From B21-G16 sp003644825 [NCBI: Candidatus Zhuqueibacterota bacterium] (GTDB lineage Bacteria; SM23-31; B21-G16), in NCBI GenBank assembly GCA_003644825.1, contig QNDJ01000014.1:1-12617 (forward strand): DNA of 12,617 bases, read 5' to 3'. Every line of letters begins with the position of its first letter. Positions within the stretch are counted from its first letter, which is position 1. This document shows, piece by piece, positions 7,153 through 12,617 of the stretch. A program made the translations under genes and the position numbers. The notes beneath the pieces are model-generated. The model was not told where the DNA came from, made no database searches, and saw nothing but the letters and a program-made list of their open reading frames with translations.

Positions 7153-8556
7153 ATGGAAATAAAATTTGATTTTAATAACTTTATGGCAGAATTCATAGGA
7201 AATAAAAACGGTATATCAGAATCTGAAGTTAATAATTTTAAGAATAAAGCAAAAAAAATACATAAAGACCTGATGGAAAAAAGAGAAAAAGGTGAACTAC
7301 CATTTTTTGACCTACCATATCAGGATAAACTGGCAGAGGAAATTGAAAAAACAGCAGATGACATCTCAAAAAGATTTGATTACTTTATAGTCCTCGGAAT
7401 TGGTGGTTCTGCCCTGGGGGGAATTGCCCTTCATACAGCAATAAACCACCCATATTATAATCAACTATCTAATGAAAAAAGAAACTTCAGACCAAAAATT
7501 TATTTTCTTGATAATATTGACCCTGTATTTATATCATCCATCTTTGATGTCATAGACCTTGAAAAAAGCTGTTTTAATGTTATCAGCAAATCAGGAGGAA
7601 CAGCAGAAACAGCCTCTCAGTTTTTAATCTTCTTAAATAAGTTAAAAAACACTCTGGGAAATGCTTCCTATAAAAAACATATAATTACAACAACTGATGC
7701 TAAAAAAGGTAAATTAAGAGAAATAACAGATAAAGAAGGATTCTTAAATTTTGTTATACCAGCGGGTGTAGGTGGAAGGTTTTCCGTTTTCACTCCTGTA
7801 GGTTTACTTCCTTCAGCGATAACCGGCATTGATATCAAAGAACTGCTGAAGGGGGCAGCAGAAATGGATAAAAAGTGTCAGAATGAAAATATCTGGGAAA
7901 ATCCTGCATATCTTAATGCCATTTTTCACTATATTTTTGATATTGAAAAACAAAAAAACATATCCGTTATGATGCCTTACAGCAATTCTTTAAAAGATAT
8001 AGCCGATTGGTATAGACAGTTATGGGCAGAAAGCCTCGGTAAAAAATTCAACCTTAAAAATGAAATCGTTAATACAGGTCAAACACCGGTAAAAGCACTT
8101 GGAGTAACTGACCAGCACTCTCAACTTCAACTCTATGTTGAAGGGCCTGATGATAAAGTAATAACTTTTCTTACTGTTGACAATTATAAATCTATTATGG
8201 AAATTCCTCTGGAATATAAAGAAATAAAGGATATTTCTTACCTATCCGGTCATACTCTCAATGAACTGATTAAAGCAGAAAGAGATGCAACAGAACTAAC
8301 ACTTACAAAAAATCATAAACCTAACTGTAATATAATTTTTCCTGAAGTAAATGAGTATACAGTTGGTCAAATCCTGTATATGTTTGAGGTACAAACTGCA
8401 TTTGCAGGCGGACTATACAACATCAATCCTTTTGACCAGCCCGGTGTAGAAGAAGGAAAACATTTCGCTTATGGTATTCTTGGAAGAAAAGGATTTGAAC
8501 ATAAAAAAGAGGAAATTGAAAAAAGAACACCTAAAAAAGATAAATGGGTTATTTAG
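7153..8556 (+). CDS. pgi: Glucose-6-phosphate isomerase
   Basis: Interconverts glucose 6-phosphate and fructose 6-phosphate in the cytoplasm; 467 residues. The SIS-type phosphate-binding parts are LGIGGSALGG (81-90) and SKSGGTAET (145-153). Arg209 is in GGRFSVFTPVG, the catalytic Glu293 is in WAESLGK, and His322 is in TDQHSQLQLY. The C-terminal signature FDQPGVEEGK carries the active-site Lys. The length matches the shorter bacterial form rather than the ~550-residue proteobacterial enzyme. AGGGG (7143-7147) lies 5 nt before ATG 7153. It is the last gene of the + strand cluster, and its final 8 nt overlap the 3' end of the convergent LysR gene, with no terminator visible between them. Confidence 0.95.
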   Translation: MEIKFDFNNFMAEFIGNKNGISESEVNNFKNKAKKIHKDLMEKREKGELPFFDLPYQDKLAEEIEKTADDISKRFDYFIVLGIGGSALGGIALHTAINHPYYNQLSNEKRNFRPKIYFLDNIDPVFISSIFDVIDLEKSCFNVISKSGGTAETASQFLIFLNKLKNTLGNASYKKHIITTTDAKKGKLREITDKEGFLNFVIPAGVGGRFSVFTPVGLLPSAITGIDIKELLKGAAEMDKKCQNENIWENPAYLNAIFHYIFDIEKQKNISVMMPYSNSLKDIADWYRQLWAESLGKKFNLKNEIVNTGQTPVKALGVTDQHSQLQLYVEGPDDKVITFLTVDNYKSIMEIPLEYKEIKDISYLSGHTLNELIKAERDATELTLTKNHKPNCNIIFPEVNEYTVGQILYMFEVQTAFAGGLYNINPFDQPGVEEGKHFAYGILGRKGFEHKKEEIEKRTPKKDKWVI

Positions 8557-9463
8557 TATCTAAAACAAAATCTAAAAATGTTTTGCAGATTGGAGACCGG
8601 GGTCTATTTTTATGATAGATGAGAAAAAATTTTCTATCAAATTTTATGCTATCAATTTTAACTTCTTTTAATATTCCGAGCTGTAATTCAGTTTCTACTT
8701 CCCTTCGGGAAATAATCGATATTCCGATATTAGCCATAATTCCTTTTTTAACAGCCTCAGAACTGCCTAATTCACACACAACATTAAGGTTATCAGGATT
8801 TATATCATTATGAAGTAAAACATTTTCAATAATTTTTCTTGTTCCTGAACCTTCTTCCCTCATTATAAATGGTTCTTTCAATATTAAAGATAAGGAAATC
8901 CCGGTATCAATTTCTGCCCAGGGATGATTATTATTTACCACGAGAATTAAGGAATCCTCTCTAAAATCGAGGCAAGCTATTTTATAGTTTTCAGGCTTTT
9001 TACCAACAACCCCAAGTTCATAAATTCCAGAGTTAACCCCATCAATTATCTCCTGAGAATCACCAAGTTTCAAAACAATATTGATTCCTGGATGAAAACT
9101 TCTAAATTTTCCTATTAATTCAGGCATAATGTGTGTACCGGGAATCGAGCTCCCACCAATAGTTAAATCACCTTTCTCAATTTCAAGGAATTTGTTCATT
9201 TTTTGTATTAACTCACTTTTTATATTCAGAATTCTTTTAGCATAATAATACAAAATTTTCCCGGCTTTTGTTGGCATAATTTTTTTACTTCCCCTATCAA
9301 GCAACTGAGTGTCAAAAACCATTTCCAGAGAAGCTATTCTTTCGCTAACAGTTGGCTGGGTTAACTTAACTTCTTCAGCAGCTCTTGAAAAACTGTTTAA
9401 TTCTACTATCTTGCAAAAAATATCAAGTTGTTTCAAATCAAAATTAACTTTATAATATTTCAT
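8549..9463 (-). CDS. LysR-family regulator, selenium-metabolism associated type
   Basis: Transcription factor of 304 residues. The N-terminal winged helix-turn-helix covers about residues 8-67 (LKQLDIFCKIVELNSFSRAA, then TQPTVSERIASLE), followed by a linker helix. A periplasmic-binding-protein-like effector domain starts near residue 95 (GDLTIGGSSIPGTHIMPELI), the CysB-like pattern. It is the last gene of the selenium operon, 25 nt after selD on the same strand, with AAGGGGA (9471-9477) 7 nt before the ATG. LysR proteins next to selD/yedF form a recognised group called selenium metabolism-associated regulators. From that position I infer that it controls this operon or selenoprotein genes elsewhere, possibly sensing a sulfur or selenium compound. 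The effector is unknown. Confidence 0.85.
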   Translation of the reverse strand: MKYYKVNFDLKQLDIFCKIVELNSFSRAAEEVKLTQPTVSERIASLEMVFDTQLLDRGSKKIMPTKAGKILYYYAKRILNIKSELIQKMNKFLEIEKGDLTIGGSSIPGTHIMPELIGKFRSFHPGINIVLKLGDSQEIIDGVNSGIYELGVVGKKPENYKIACLDFREDSLILVVNNNHPWAEIDTGISLSLILKEPFIMREEGSGTRKIIENVLLHNDINPDNLNVVCELGSSEAVKKGIMANIGISIISRREVETELQLGILKEVKIDSIKFDRKFFLIYHKNRPRSPICKTFLDFVLDTK

Positions 9464-9488
9464 TTTATAGTCCCCTTAAGATTAATTT

Positions 9489-10559
9489 TTAAACTTCAAT
9501 AACTGAAGATTCTTCAGATACTATTACAATTTCATTCGTTGGTTTATCTATAATCTCACCAATAATACTCGGAAATTCAACACCCTTATTTTTTAATTTA
9601 TTTAACAAGTTATCTGCTCTGTCGGGCGAAACAGAAATTAAAAGCCCCCCCGAAGTCTGTGCGTCAAAAAGAATATCCTTTATTTCAGGTTTTAAATTTC
9701 CGTCTTCTCTGACAATATGCTCGTAAAATTTCAAATTTGCTTTTGTCCCTGCAGGAACTAACCCAAGAGATGAATACTCAATTGCTTCTTTAAATACAGG
9801 AACATTCTTCAAAAATAATTTCATTCCTGTTCCTGAAGAATTTATCATATTATAAGCATGCCCTATTAATGAAAAACCGGTTATATCAGTACAGGCATTT
9901 ACACCAATTTCAATCATAGCTTCCGCTGCATACTTATTCAATGTGACCATACTTCTTGTTATTTTATTTACTGCTTGATTACTTGCGATTTCTCCTTTCA
10001 AAGCTGTAGCAATTATACCTGTTCCTACAGGTTTTGTTAGAATTACCGCATCACCTGGTTTTGCACCTTTAACAGAAATTATTTTATCTGGAGACACTAT
10101 TCCTGTTATAGAAAGCCCGTATTTAATTTCATCATCTTTAATACTATGCCCACCTACAAGAACAGCACCAGCCTCATGAATTTTTTCAATTCCACCATTA
10201 AGAATTTCCTTTAAAATACTTTTATCAAGCTTCTTTGACGGAAAAGCAACAATATTCATTGCAGTCAAAGGTTTACCACCCATTGCATATATATCACTCA
10301 ATGCATTTGCTGCAGCGATTCTCCCGAAATCATAAGGGTCATTAACAACAGGAGTAAAAAAATCCAGAGTCTGAATTAATGCTATATTTTCAGATAATAA
10401 ATATACCCCTGCATCGTCAGGCTGCTCAAGCCCGATAAGCAGGTTCGGGTCTGCTTTAAGATTTAACCCGCATAATATTTCCTGTAAGTCCGACGAACTT
10501 ATCTTTGCAGCTCAACCAGCAGCTTTAACTTTTTCAGTAAGTTTTATTTTTTCATTCAT
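9489..10559 (-). CDS. selD: Selenide, water dikinase (SelD), a selenoprotein with in-frame UGA
   Basis: Makes selenophosphate from selenide and ATP, the selenium donor for selenocysteine and selenouridine. The full gene starts at ATG 10559 and encodes 356 residues if the TGA at codon 16 (10514-10512) is read as selenocysteine. The N-terminus then reads LTEKVKAAG-U-AAKIS, in which Sec16 and Lys19 match the catalytic Cys/Sec and Lys of the family (Cys17/Lys20 in E. coli). Downstream come QPDDAGVY (about 46-53), TLDFFTPVVNDPYDFGRIAA (64-83), ALSDIYAMGG, and VGGHSIKDDEI, all canonical for the AIRS-like ATP-binding fold. A conventional caller would stop at the TGA and start near 10301, losing 86 residues including the active site. 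The start overlaps the end of the DUF3343 gene by 8 nt, implying coupled translation. LysR follows after 25 nt. Confidence 0.95.
10485..10514 (-). promoter_or_regulatory. Sec codon (UGA) and bacterial SECIS-like hairpin of selD
   Basis: On the - strand the UGA (10514-10512) is followed after 17 nt by the apical loop of a hairpin. The stem is UAAGUUC (10501-10495) with GGACUUA (10491-10485): 7 bp including one U-G pair. The loop is GUC (10494-10492), which supplies the G and U that SelB contacts in known bacterial SECIS elements. The distance from UGA to loop is in the normal bacterial range. The fold was drawn by eye. Confidence 0.75.
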
Positions 10560-10809
10560 ATCTAATAAACCTTCCGTTCTTTTGTAAGTAAATTCCTTTT
10601 ACTTCAAACTTATAGGTAGAAAGAACATTTTTCACAATATCCATTTCCATTGATTTGATACCGATTGCCATACCACAACTGGAGTCTATCTCTTTCGGAA
10701 CAGGAACAACATCATAAAAAATATTTTTACCTTTAAGAATTTTCTCAGCCTTTAAAACAGAATGAATATTCTGGAATATTAATATACTATCAAATGAATT
10801 ACTATCCAT
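10552..10809 (-). CDS. DUF3343 putative Se/S carrier protein
   Basis: Small protein of 85 residues. It matches the DUF3343 family (putative Se/S carrier) from its size, the opening FDSILIFQNIHSVLKAEKIL, and the motif VPVPKEIDSSCGMAIGI with the single conserved Cys45. That Cys is the likely carrier residue, taking selenium or sulfur as a persulfide-like adduct. It lies between the desulfurase-like gene (gap 2 nt) and selD (overlap 8 nt), which suggests delivery of selenium from the PLP enzyme to SelD; this is inferred from position and the family label, not shown. It has no good ribosome binding site of its own, so translation is probably coupled to the upstream gene. Its stop is itself a UGA (10554-10552), placed 37 nt before the selD UGA that codes for selenocysteine. 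Confidence 0.85.
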   Translation of the reverse strand: MDSNSFDSILIFQNIHSVLKAEKILKGKNIFYDVVPVPKEIDSSCGMAIGIKSMEMDIVKNVLSTYKFEVKGIYLQKNGRFIRYE

Positions 10810-10811
10810 AT

Positions 10812-11957
10812 TTAATTTTTTGAAATTTTATATAATGCTTCAATGGTTTTATCCACATCCTTTTCAGAGTTAAAAAATCCTGAAGAAAATCTCAGCGTTC
10901 CTTCAGGAAAAGTTAAAATTGTTTTATGTGCAGCAGGTGCACAGTGCAATCCACCTCTGGTCATTATATTAAATTCTTTATCAAGTTTAAAACAGAGTTC
11001 AGAAGATGTTCTATTTTTCATATTAATGGATATCAGAGGAACTCTATTTTCTATATTTAAATCTCCATATATTTTAACTGTTTCAAGTTCTAATAGTTTA
11101 TTGATAAAATATCCGGAGAGTTCCTTATCTTTTTCTCTTATATTTTCCACTTTTGTTTTCATTAAGAATTTTAAACTCCCACATAATCCTGCAATACCAG
11201 TTACATTCAGGGTTCCACTTTCAAACTTATCCGGGAGGAATTCCGGTTGTTTTTCCAGTTCAGAGTTACTACCGGTACCACCCATCTTTACAGGTTCAAA
11301 ATCTATATTATTACCAATATATAATCCACCAATACCAGATGGACCTAATAGTGATTTATGCCCTGTGAAAGCAAGTAAATCTATTCCAGATTTCTTAACA
11401 TCTATGGGAATACATCCAGCAGTTTGTGCAGCATCCAAAAGAACAGGAATATTTCCGACAATTTTTTTTATTTTTTCTACAGGAGTAATCACACCGGTTA
11501 CATTAGAGGCGTGATTAATAATTATCAATTTTGTATTTTCTTTAATAAATTCTTTAAAGTGATAAGGGTTAATTAATCCATCTCTGTTTGCTTTTACAAC
11601 ATCAATTTTAATATGCTTTTTTCTCTCGATGAATCTAAGGGGGCGCATCACTGAATTATGTTCAACAGAAGTAGTAATAATATGGTCGTTTTCTTTTAAA
11701 AAACTGTTTATAACATAATTTATACTTTCAGTAGCATTGCTGGTAAAAATTATTCTGCTTGAATCAGATATATTGAATAATTCAGATAGAAGTTCTCTTG
11801 TCTCAAAAACAAGTTTACCTGCTTCCAGTGAAAGTTTATGCCCGGACCTGCCAGGATTTGCTGCATACCTGGATAAATATTCAGTTATCTTATTTATTAC
11901 TTCTTCTGGTTTTGGAAAAGAAGTCGCAGCATTATCAAGATATACTAATTCATTCAT
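10812..11957 (-). CDS. Cysteine desulfurase-family aminotransferase class V (selenium operon)
   Basis: PLP-dependent enzyme of 381 residues related to NifS/SufS; by family it removes sulfur from cysteine or selenium from selenocysteine, leaving alanine. From the ATG start, visible residues are YLDNAATSFPKP at the N-terminus, His100 in SVEHNS, Asp175 and Gln178 in LLDAAQTAG, the PLP Lys201 in TGHKSLLGPSG, and the catalytic Cys339 in RGGLHCAPAAHK. The GGLHCAP wording and operon place it with the desulfurase-family group found beside yedF and selD rather than with housekeeping IscS. A TTG at 11963 would add two residues and overlaps the yedF stop as TTGA. I prefer ATG 11957, 2 nt after that stop, because ATG is the stronger initiator. 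No strong ribosome binding site is visible, so translational coupling to yedF is likely. Selenium versus sulfur preference cannot be told from sequence. Confidence 0.9.
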   Translation of the reverse strand: MNELVYLDNAATSFPKPEEVINKITEYLSRYAANPGRSGHKLSLEAGKLVFETRELLSELFNISDSSRIIFTSNATESINYVINSFLKENDHIITTSVEHNSVMRPLRFIERKKHIKIDVVKANRDGLINPYHFKEFIKENTKLIIINHASNVTGVITPVEKIKKIVGNIPVLLDAAQTAGCIPIDVKKSGIDLLAFTGHKSLLGPSGIGGLYIGNNIDFEPVKMGGTGSNSELEKQPEFLPDKFESGTLNVTGIAGLCGSLKFLMKTKVENIREKDKELSGYFINKLLELETVKIYGDLNIENRVPLISINMKNRTSSELCFKLDKEFNIMTRGGLHCAPAAHKTILTFPEGTLRFSSGFFNSEKDVDKTIEALYKISKN

Positions 11958-11959
11958 CT

Positions 11960-12559
11960 TCAAGGGGAAACAACTTTATCTACTGTATGTAATGTATTCA
12001 CTATTTCATACATATTTGTAACCTGCCCTACTTTCAATTTATCTTTTACATTATAATAATCAAGGCAGGTTCCACAGGAATAAATTTCAATTCCATTATT
12101 TCTCAGTTCAGTTAAAACATCAAAAAAATCTGTTTCCAGGGTAGTTAAAAAAACACCACTATTAATAAACAAAATCTTTTCAGGTTTTGGTTTAACTTCA
12201 ATAATAGTTTTAAGGAATGCTTTCATAAGTATCTTTCCAAGTTCATCCTCACCATTCCCAATTCTGTTAGAATTGATATAAATTGCCACTCTTTTATTTT
12301 TCTTTTCTGGTTCTATTTCACCCATCCCCGAAGGTAAATCATTCACACTTTTTGATATTAAAAGTTTAAAATTATCTTTAACCTTTTCAATCTTCACATT
12401 AAAACCCTGTTTTTTAGCAAACCGCTCAACATTATCTCTTGCAGTTTCATTATCGGTAATGACTACAAGTGCGTTACTCCCGATCTTCTCAAGAGCTTCT
12501 CTTGTTTTTAATACAGGTCCGGGGCATTCAAGACCTCTTACATCAATTTCTTTATTCAT
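11960..12559 (-). CDS. yedF: Sulfurtransferase-like selenium metabolism protein YedF
   Basis: Protein of 199 residues and two domains. Residues 1-70 are a TusA/SirA-like domain (IDVRGLECPGPVLKTREAL) with the conserved Cys12 of the CPxP motif, the residue that carries persulfide in TusA. Residues 88-199 are a DsrE-like domain (KRVAIYINSNRIGNGEDELG, then KILFINSGVFLTT) with the cysteine pair Cys162 and Cys165 in SCGTCLDYY. This fusion defines the selenium-associated YedF group found with selD. It probably takes part in handling reactive sulfur or selenium for SelD, although its precise role is not established. It is the first visible gene of the - strand operon. AAGGTGGAG lies just upstream of ATG 12559, and its UGA stop nearly touches the next start. 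Confidence 0.92.
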   Translation of the reverse strand: MNKEIDVRGLECPGPVLKTREALEKIGSNALVVITDNETARDNVERFAKKQGFNVKIEKVKDNFKLLISKSVNDLPSGMGEIEPEKKNKRVAIYINSNRIGNGEDELGKILMKAFLKTIIEVKPKPEKILFINSGVFLTTLETDFFDVLTELRNNGIEIYSCGTCLDYYNVKDKLKVGQVTNMYEIVNTLHTVDKVVSP

Positions 12560-12582
12560 ACTCCACCTTAAAATATCAATAT

Positions 12583-12612
12583 TATCTATTGTCTGATAAA
12601 ATATAATAGATA
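12583..12612. repeat. Inverted repeat upstream of yedF, candidate operator
   Basis: TATCTATT (12583-12590) and AATAGATA (12605-12612) are perfect 8-bp inverted arms separated by 14 nt. They lie 24-53 nt upstream of the yedF ATG, in the expected promoter zone. No clear -35/-10 pair could be assigned there. The DNA is very AT-rich, so chance is a real possibility. The LysR protein encoded at the operon's other end would be the obvious candidate to bind it. Confidence 0.35.
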
Positions 12613-12617
12613 TTACC

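Follow-up and report, generated by a model that had tools for sequence, protein, structure and literature searches.

The selenium (Se) gene set closest to the one described here was proposed by Lin et al. (2015; PMC5322559), in whose clusters the genes for YedF, DUF3343 and LysR_Se stand beside a gene for a selenocysteine (Sec) lyase. DUF3343 was proposed in that study to traffic Se or sulfur (S), and LysR_Se was suggested to be a selenophosphate sensor and Se regulator (Lin et al., 2015; PMC5322559). Fusions of selenophosphate synthetase (SelD) to NADH-dehydrogenase-like and NifS-like domains have also been described, with the extra domain on the N-terminal side and the SelD in nearly every case a Cys-type protein (Mariotti et al., 2015; PMC4561486). 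According to a 2026 review, the form of Se used by SelD in vivo and the system that delivers it are incompletely elucidated (PMC13188914). Here, we describe a five-gene locus encoding YedF, a cysteine desulfurase, DUF3343, SelD and a LysR-family regulator in B21-G16 sp003644825 (Candidatus Zhuqueibacterota bacterium). The stretch of DNA analysed, referred to below as the window, corresponds to an entire contig, 12,617 nt long (QNDJ01000014.1), from a 2.48 Mb assembly of 493 contigs that was judged 83.6% complete (GCA_003644825.1). A preliminary description of the window had treated the association of these families as established; the same set had been proposed by Lin et al. (2015; PMC5322559). 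We propose that the locus is likely to be an operon for Se mobilisation and activation, in which Se would be relayed from the desulfurase through DUF3343 to SelD.

Results

Natural fusions of DUF3343

DUF3343, the middle protein of the proposed relay, is found fused to the superfamily of each of its two neighbours, though the fused desulfurase belongs to the NifS type, which differs from that of the window. In genome G123, DUF3343 and SelD make up one open frame of 420 aa (L100:4371-5633). Across the 380 genomes searched, full-length DUF3343::SelD frames with no internal stop are present in at least eight genomes of family f121, G123 included; fusion counts here refer to the eight f121 genomes among the matches listed, with G398, a ninth f121 genome with a SelD match, outside them. 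The eight fusions (L100; L146-L152) come from four genera and, outside G123, are 60-77% identical to the query. Seven of the eight frames could be read throughout, while 25 bases in the linker of the G386 fusion are read as N. DUF3343 sits N-terminal of SelD in these proteins and retains its Cys-Gly in all eight; Pfam domains for both halves were confirmed in all four of the fusions that were scanned. In each of the eight genomes the order is YedF-desulfurase-[DUF3343::SelD], the same as in the window, and SelA exceeds its cut-off in five of them.

The second fusion is in G092 (L156:2087-4499), where DUF3343 stands ahead of a NifS-type desulfurase and an mnmA-family gene comes next. MnmA is a tRNA 2-thiouridylase and belongs to a sulfur pathway. 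Because the NifS fusion adjoins mnmA, the same carrier design would appear to serve sulfur, and the most fitting view of DUF3343 is that of a chalcogen carrier, with the element determined by the proteins it works with.

Several other candidates were rejected. Among the matches listed, the remaining, non-fused rows start within the SelD part, except for those in G073 (from residue 41) and G422 (from residue 61), both outside f121, which contain TAG or TAA and were not counted as fusions. In plasmids, YedF was found in 18 records and DUF3343 in eight, and the fused DUF3343::SelD query matched 167; in two of the best 10 of these 167 (H20 and H22) the match begins in the DUF3343 part, but SelD starts at its own place, and no DUF3343 was seen by eye in either frame. 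The check for DUF3343 fusions covered frames longer than 350 aa, with the frames of G107, G319 and G325 (175-221 aa) outside it. Two long DUF3343 frames (L157 and L158) proved not to be fusions, the desulfurase being a separate adjacent frame, and a scan of L169:4001-4200 gave no match. For YedF, the window and 38 further loci hold no stop-free frame that links it to another member of the unit: a TGA divides the two genes in the apparent YedF-desulfurase fusions of L072 and L076 and in the apparent YedF-SelD fusion of L081. As separate observations, matches to the DsrE part alone sometimes lie in long frames (642 aa in G180, for example), and stop-free SelD matches lie in frames of about 670-865 aa in G050:C33, G276:C44 and G131:C1, which are possibly the known N-terminal SelD fusions.

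Genomic neighbourhoods of DUF3343

We surveyed YedF and DUF3343 in 386 genomes. Full-length YedF scores over its cut-off in 34 of these genomes (51 when partial matches over the cut-off are included). DUF3343 is present in 62, at 64 places; the G040 place scores under the Pfam cut-off and that of G152:C162 is truncated by the end of its contig, and both are counted. With the window's own genome excluded, 22 of the 33 genomes with YedF have DUF3343, as against 39 of the 352 others.

Neighbours were assigned with single-sequence phmmer queries, by which divergent genes may be missed. At 37 of the 64 DUF3343 places (36 of 63 with the window left out), the same strand carries a desulfurase gene no more than 200 nt away; these places span 27 of 49 families, and in 33 of the 37 pairs the desulfurase is the upstream member. 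By the same measure, SelD adjoins DUF3343 at seven of the 64 places and YedF at six, while a match to SelD, YedF, YedE, SelA or SelB within 4 kb, counting weak ones from 25 bits, is found at 30. The exact order desulfurase-DUF3343-SelD occurs at six of the 64 places, in four families: f1 (the window), f33 (three times), f151 and f121. In a SelD tree, the f151, f33 and f121 proteins fall in separate well-supported groups, and the window SelD has no well-supported close partner.

Only a minority of the loci include the LysR gene in the unit, with a strong match in the same short cluster at two of the 33 other full-length YedF loci (L070 and L073); at L088, L089 and L095 the LysR match is farther away, weaker or on the opposite strand. 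On the same contig as L070, L039:195-3016 (from the metagenome-assembled genome Yes70-06) has YedE-DUF3343-LysR-YedF in a single run. We also noted two desulfurase-DUF3343 pairs followed by large genes, the first two of which encode multihaem cytochromes at L167:2820-8204; those at L174:1200-6585 are of similar sizes. In two DUF3343 homologues, L186 (G015) and L202 (G131), the conserved Cys is missing, and a stretch of 4 kb around them yields no match to a desulfurase, SelD or YedF.

Family membership and conserved residues

Each of the five proteins scores over the curated cut-off for an NCBIfam or Pfam family that is linked to Se or to carrier function, so the gene assignments of the preliminary description hold; its Cys numbering and its placing of Sec16 are likewise correct, the desulfurase Cys339 being counted from the ATG at 11957. 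YedF matches TIGR03527 with 225.9 bits (cut-off 110) over residues 5-199, a full-length match to the TusA plus DsrE architecture, with 70.5 bits for the TusA-like part (PF01206) and 23 bits for the DsrE-like part (PF02635; cut-off 22.7). Of 34 aligned rows, 33 keep its Cys12, in a CPxP motif, and one has no residue there; the C-G-x-C motif that holds Cys162 and Cys165 (C162-G-T-C165) is kept in all 34. DUF3343 scores 70.4 bits against PF11823 (cut-off 25), and 68 of the 71 domains in the alignment have Cys at the column of its Cys45. SelD scores 386 bits against TIGR00476 (cut-off 125) and the LysR protein 299.5 bits against NF040786 (cut-off 250).

The desulfurase, a member of the class-V pyridoxal 5'-phosphate (PLP) enzymes, scores 482.1 bits against TIGR01977 (cut-off 377). 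Its loop Cys341 (counted from the TTG; 339 from the ATG), Lys203 in a GHK motif, the presumed PLP lysine, and Asn103 are invariant in 12 of 12 aligned rows. Identity with SclA was considered and dropped, the score against the SclA model NF040779 being 387.6 bits, under its cut-off of 525. In human selenocysteine lyase, Asp146 confers specificity for Se (PMC3266270); with the position matched by the EHxS motif, all 12 rows have Asn103 (EHNS in the window protein) and lack an Asp of this type. With a score below the SclA cut-off and Asn at the place of the human Asp146, specificity of the enzyme for Se over S is no more than a possibility. The genome also encodes, at L032:1-2992 (G000:C223), another desulfurase of this family that is 47% identical, and the gene downstream of it, on the opposite strand, resembles by eye an aldehyde:ferredoxin oxidoreductase.

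An AlphaFold model of DUF3343 built from two sequences (predicted local distance difference test score (pLDDT) 88.3, predicted template modelling score 0.79) has a small, ferredoxin-like alpha/beta fold with the order strand-helix-strand-strand-helix-strand-strand, and Cys45 is predicted to lie in the loop joining strands 2 and 3. Fold searches gave matches to common folds only (best Z 6.9; best Foldseek E 0.027), PII-like and ferredoxin-like proteins of the Protein Data Bank that include Atx1-type copper carriers at Z of about 5 and indicate no function. Searched by sequence against solved structures, DUF3343 had no match at E up to 1, and YedF had nine weak matches, mostly TusA-like. A YedF model from a two-row alignment was discarded (pLDDT 48).

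Selenocysteine in SelD and the Sec machinery

With TGA read as Sec, the selD translation is open across 356 residues, with the TGA at codon 16. Of 15 other SelD rows in the alignment, 13 have UGA in this column and two have Cys. The Sec residue is followed by xxK in the loop U16-A-A-K19, and Gly15 and Lys19 are invariant in 16 of 16 rows. The stem of the predicted hairpin that resembles a selenocysteine insertion sequence (SECIS) starts 10 nt after the UGA, and its loop lies at nt 21-23 from the U of the UGA. Across 36 other Sec-type selD genes, 79% of the cells for its seven pairs are canonical, compared with only 27-60% when, as a control, one arm is slid by 1-3 bases. The same genome encodes SelA (563.7 bits) and SelB (349 bits, truncated where its contig stops), both over cut-off, in genes that adjoin each other on another contig than the window. 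No tRNA was found in a scan of three selB/selA loci.

Layout of the locus

The features of the locus are collected in Table 1. The coordinates, recomputed, agree with the preliminary description, which had placed five genes on one strand with overlaps or gaps of at most 25 nt. yedF and the desulfurase gene overlap by 4 nt if the latter starts at TTG, or are separated by 2 nt if it starts at ATG; a 2-nt gap follows before DUF3343, which overlaps selD by 8 nt, and 25 nt separate selD from the LysR gene. The end of the LysR gene overlaps by 8 nt the convergent pgi (7153-8556, plus strand). Judged from this close spacing on one strand, the five genes probably form one operon.

Table 1. Features of the proposed selenium locus in the window
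Feature	Coordinates	Strand	Remarks
yedF	12559-11960	minus	most upstream of the five genes; range 11960..12559
Class-V PLP cysteine desulfurase / selenocysteine lyase family	11963 (TTG) or 11957 (ATG) to 10812	minus	
DUF3343 (Se_S_carrier)	10809-10552	minus	
selD, selenophosphate synthetase	10559-9489	minus	read through in-frame UGA as Sec16
UGA codon for Sec16 of SelD	10512..10514	minus	
SECIS-like hairpin UAAGUUC-GUC-GGACUUA	10485..10501	minus	predicted fold
Selenium-metabolism-associated LysR-family regulator	9463-8549	minus	closes unit as last gene
Remaining upstream stretch	12560..12617	minus	58 bases, then contig end

Five genes is a minimum, because the contig stops 58 bases upstream of yedF. 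The last 160 bases of the contig, compared with the rest of the genome, match only themselves apart from stretches of 14-37 bases, and in the absence of a real overlap with another contig the search for an upstream extension of the operon ended at position 12617. Promoter-like sites in the region are at the level expected by chance (20, with a shuffle mean of 19.2 and standard deviation of 5.1). Terminator candidates number four, with 2.0 expected, and all four are on the plus strand. By eye, the AT-rich DNA upstream of yedF contains an 8-bp inverted repeat with a 14-nt spacer (12583-12612), a possible candidate for a regulator site.

Discussion

We propose that the PLP desulfurase would load its active-site Cys with Se (or S) drawn from selenocysteine (or cysteine), that DUF3343 would take it on Cys45 and present Se to the N-terminal catalytic loop of SelD, which contains Sec16, and that SelD would then make selenophosphate for SelA. 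YedF probably serves the same Se pool in an accessory role, as a thiol or reductant module, and the LysR protein probably tunes the unit to the level of Se or selenophosphate. We infer the transfer of Se, its direction, the use of Se over S, and these roles of YedF and the LysR protein; the path from desulfurase through DUF3343 to SelD is supported because of the DUF3343 fusions, the gene order and the neighbourhood counts. The preliminary description had proposed a relay in which both DUF3343 and YedF carry Se. Its desulfurase-DUF3343 and DUF3343-SelD steps gain support from the natural fusions and the neighbourhood counts, but YedF as a carrier between them gains no specific support, given the lack of a stop-free YedF fusion in the window and 38 loci.

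A number of observations weigh against a Se relay of this kind. The association of YedF with DUF3343 counts in favour of the relay, but its Fisher p value of 3.5e-12 is an overstatement, because the counted species are related. At 27 of the 64 DUF3343 places there is no same-strand desulfurase within 200 nt, and at 16 of the 64 the surrounding 4 kb contain none of the genes queried. DUF3343 adjoins a desulfurase in G090 and G230, which are outside the list of SelD matches (possibly they were not searched), and its occurrence in a sulfur setting, with the NifS-type fusion and then mnmA, means that it is not Se-specific. The fused SelDs are of the Cys type, unlike the Sec-type SelD of the window, and SelA was not found in three of the eight genomes listed with the fusion. 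Moreover, the fused proteins form one clade (support 100/100, in a test of eight fused rows against four rows from the window and f33 with the desulfurase-DUF3343-SelD order, the f151 SelD (L144) being unlabelled), so the DUF3343::SelD fusion probably arose once. On the side of Sec itself, the fold energy of the hairpin is not significant (z of -0.22, -1.14 and -1.57 for three stretches), and no tRNA-Sec scores above the gathering score of 47 in this 83.6% complete genome (best 32.9 bits), an absence that is not decisive in an assembly of such completeness.

These last two points also speak for a reading in which the UGA of selD is a true stop and SelD is either broken or starts downstream at a TTG (10301), from which the open reading frame under genetic code table 11 is only 270 aa long. 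We regard this as extremely improbable, since the UGA recurs at the same codon in most other SelDs, with Cys in the rest and with invariant flanking Gly15 and Lys19, the hairpin pairs are conserved over the 36 other selD genes, and the genome has both SelA and SelB. A different possibility is that there is no protein relay, freed selenide diffusing to SelD and the clustering reflecting co-regulation only; this is quite unlikely, because co-regulation poorly explains the in-frame fusions and the conserved Cys of DUF3343. Alternatively, YedF and not DUF3343 could hand Se to SelD, with DUF3343 acting at another step. The role of TusA as an acceptor from IscS is established (PMC2854127), several loci have YedF next to SelD, and the three YedF cysteines are conserved, but no stop-free frame joins YedF to SelD or to the desulfurase in the window and 38 loci, with L072, L076 and L081 all split by TGA, and we consider a YedF carrier unlikely.

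The strongest challenge comes from the idea that DUF3343 is a general desulfurase partner, a SufE/TusA-like activator or acceptor that handles S and Se alike, with its adjacency to selD reflecting local use. This is a serious possibility, though on balance we doubt it. It would account for the fusion to a NifS-type desulfurase upstream of mnmA and for desulfurase-DUF3343 pairs with no queried Se gene within 4 kb, such as the pair beside multihaem cytochromes in G230, and Lin et al. found no branch of DUF3343 that is specific to Se (PMC5322559). Nonetheless, the fusion to SelD in at least eight genomes links DUF3343 to SelD directly, and a Se-gene match, weak ones from 25 bits included, lies within 4 kb at 30 of the 64 DUF3343 places. 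Within the relay that we favour, DUF3343 may be a dedicated Se shuttle that binds both enzymes in turn and shields reactive Se as it passes from Cys341 to Cys45 to Sec16; the two halves of such a relay would be frozen as DUF3343::SelD in f121 and, in a sulfur version, as DUF3343::NifS in G092, feeding MnmA. We advance this more specific form tentatively, as a possibility that falls slightly short of probable.

The operon is a compact set of parts, and the fused versions elsewhere suggest that DUF3343, a small and little-studied protein, carries Se between two enzymes. They turn a loose proposal for DUF3343 into one that is specific, resolved as to order and testable. The fused protein also offers an experimental handle, in that the DUF3343 domain could be removed, or its Cys mutated, without loss of SelD. 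If the dedicated shuttle exists, it would be the missing donor of Se to SelD in vivo, a point on which the 2026 review finds knowledge incomplete (PMC13188914).

The locus closely resembles described Se clusters. In Slackia heliotrinireducens and elsewhere, YedF, a member of the Sec lyase family, DUF3343, SelD and LysR_Se are neighbours, as in the window, and the CPxP and CGxC motifs noted for YedF in those clusters are the same as in the window YedF (Lin et al., 2015; PMC5322559). Clusters of the Slackia type have SelA and SelB in the same region (PMC5322559), whereas in the window genome these lie on another contig, and the LysR gene closes the unit. The selD operon of Enterococcus faecalis (SclA and the SirA-like EF2566-EF2568) similarly has selD, a SirA-like/YedF gene and a class-V aminotransferase gene side by side (PMC2432076; PMC13188914). 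However, E. faecalis has an orphan SelD without SelA or SelB (PMC2432076; PMC13188914), both of which are present in the window genome, and the desulfurase of the window is under the SclA cut-off. The f121 fusion is like those of Mariotti et al. (2015) in having its extra domain on the N-terminal side, in being of the Cys type, and in that the partners there are thought to supply or reduce Se, but its partner is DUF3343, and the main text of that paper does not contain the word DUF (PMC4561486). We saw no mention of a DUF3343-SelD fusion in Lin et al. (PMC5322559), and literature searches on DUF3343, PF11823 and SelD fusions, with supplements outside their scope, gave no report of DUF3343 fusions. 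Thus, the operon is ordinary for its kind, because Lin et al. (2015) proposed the gene set earlier, and the part that may be new is the fusion of DUF3343.

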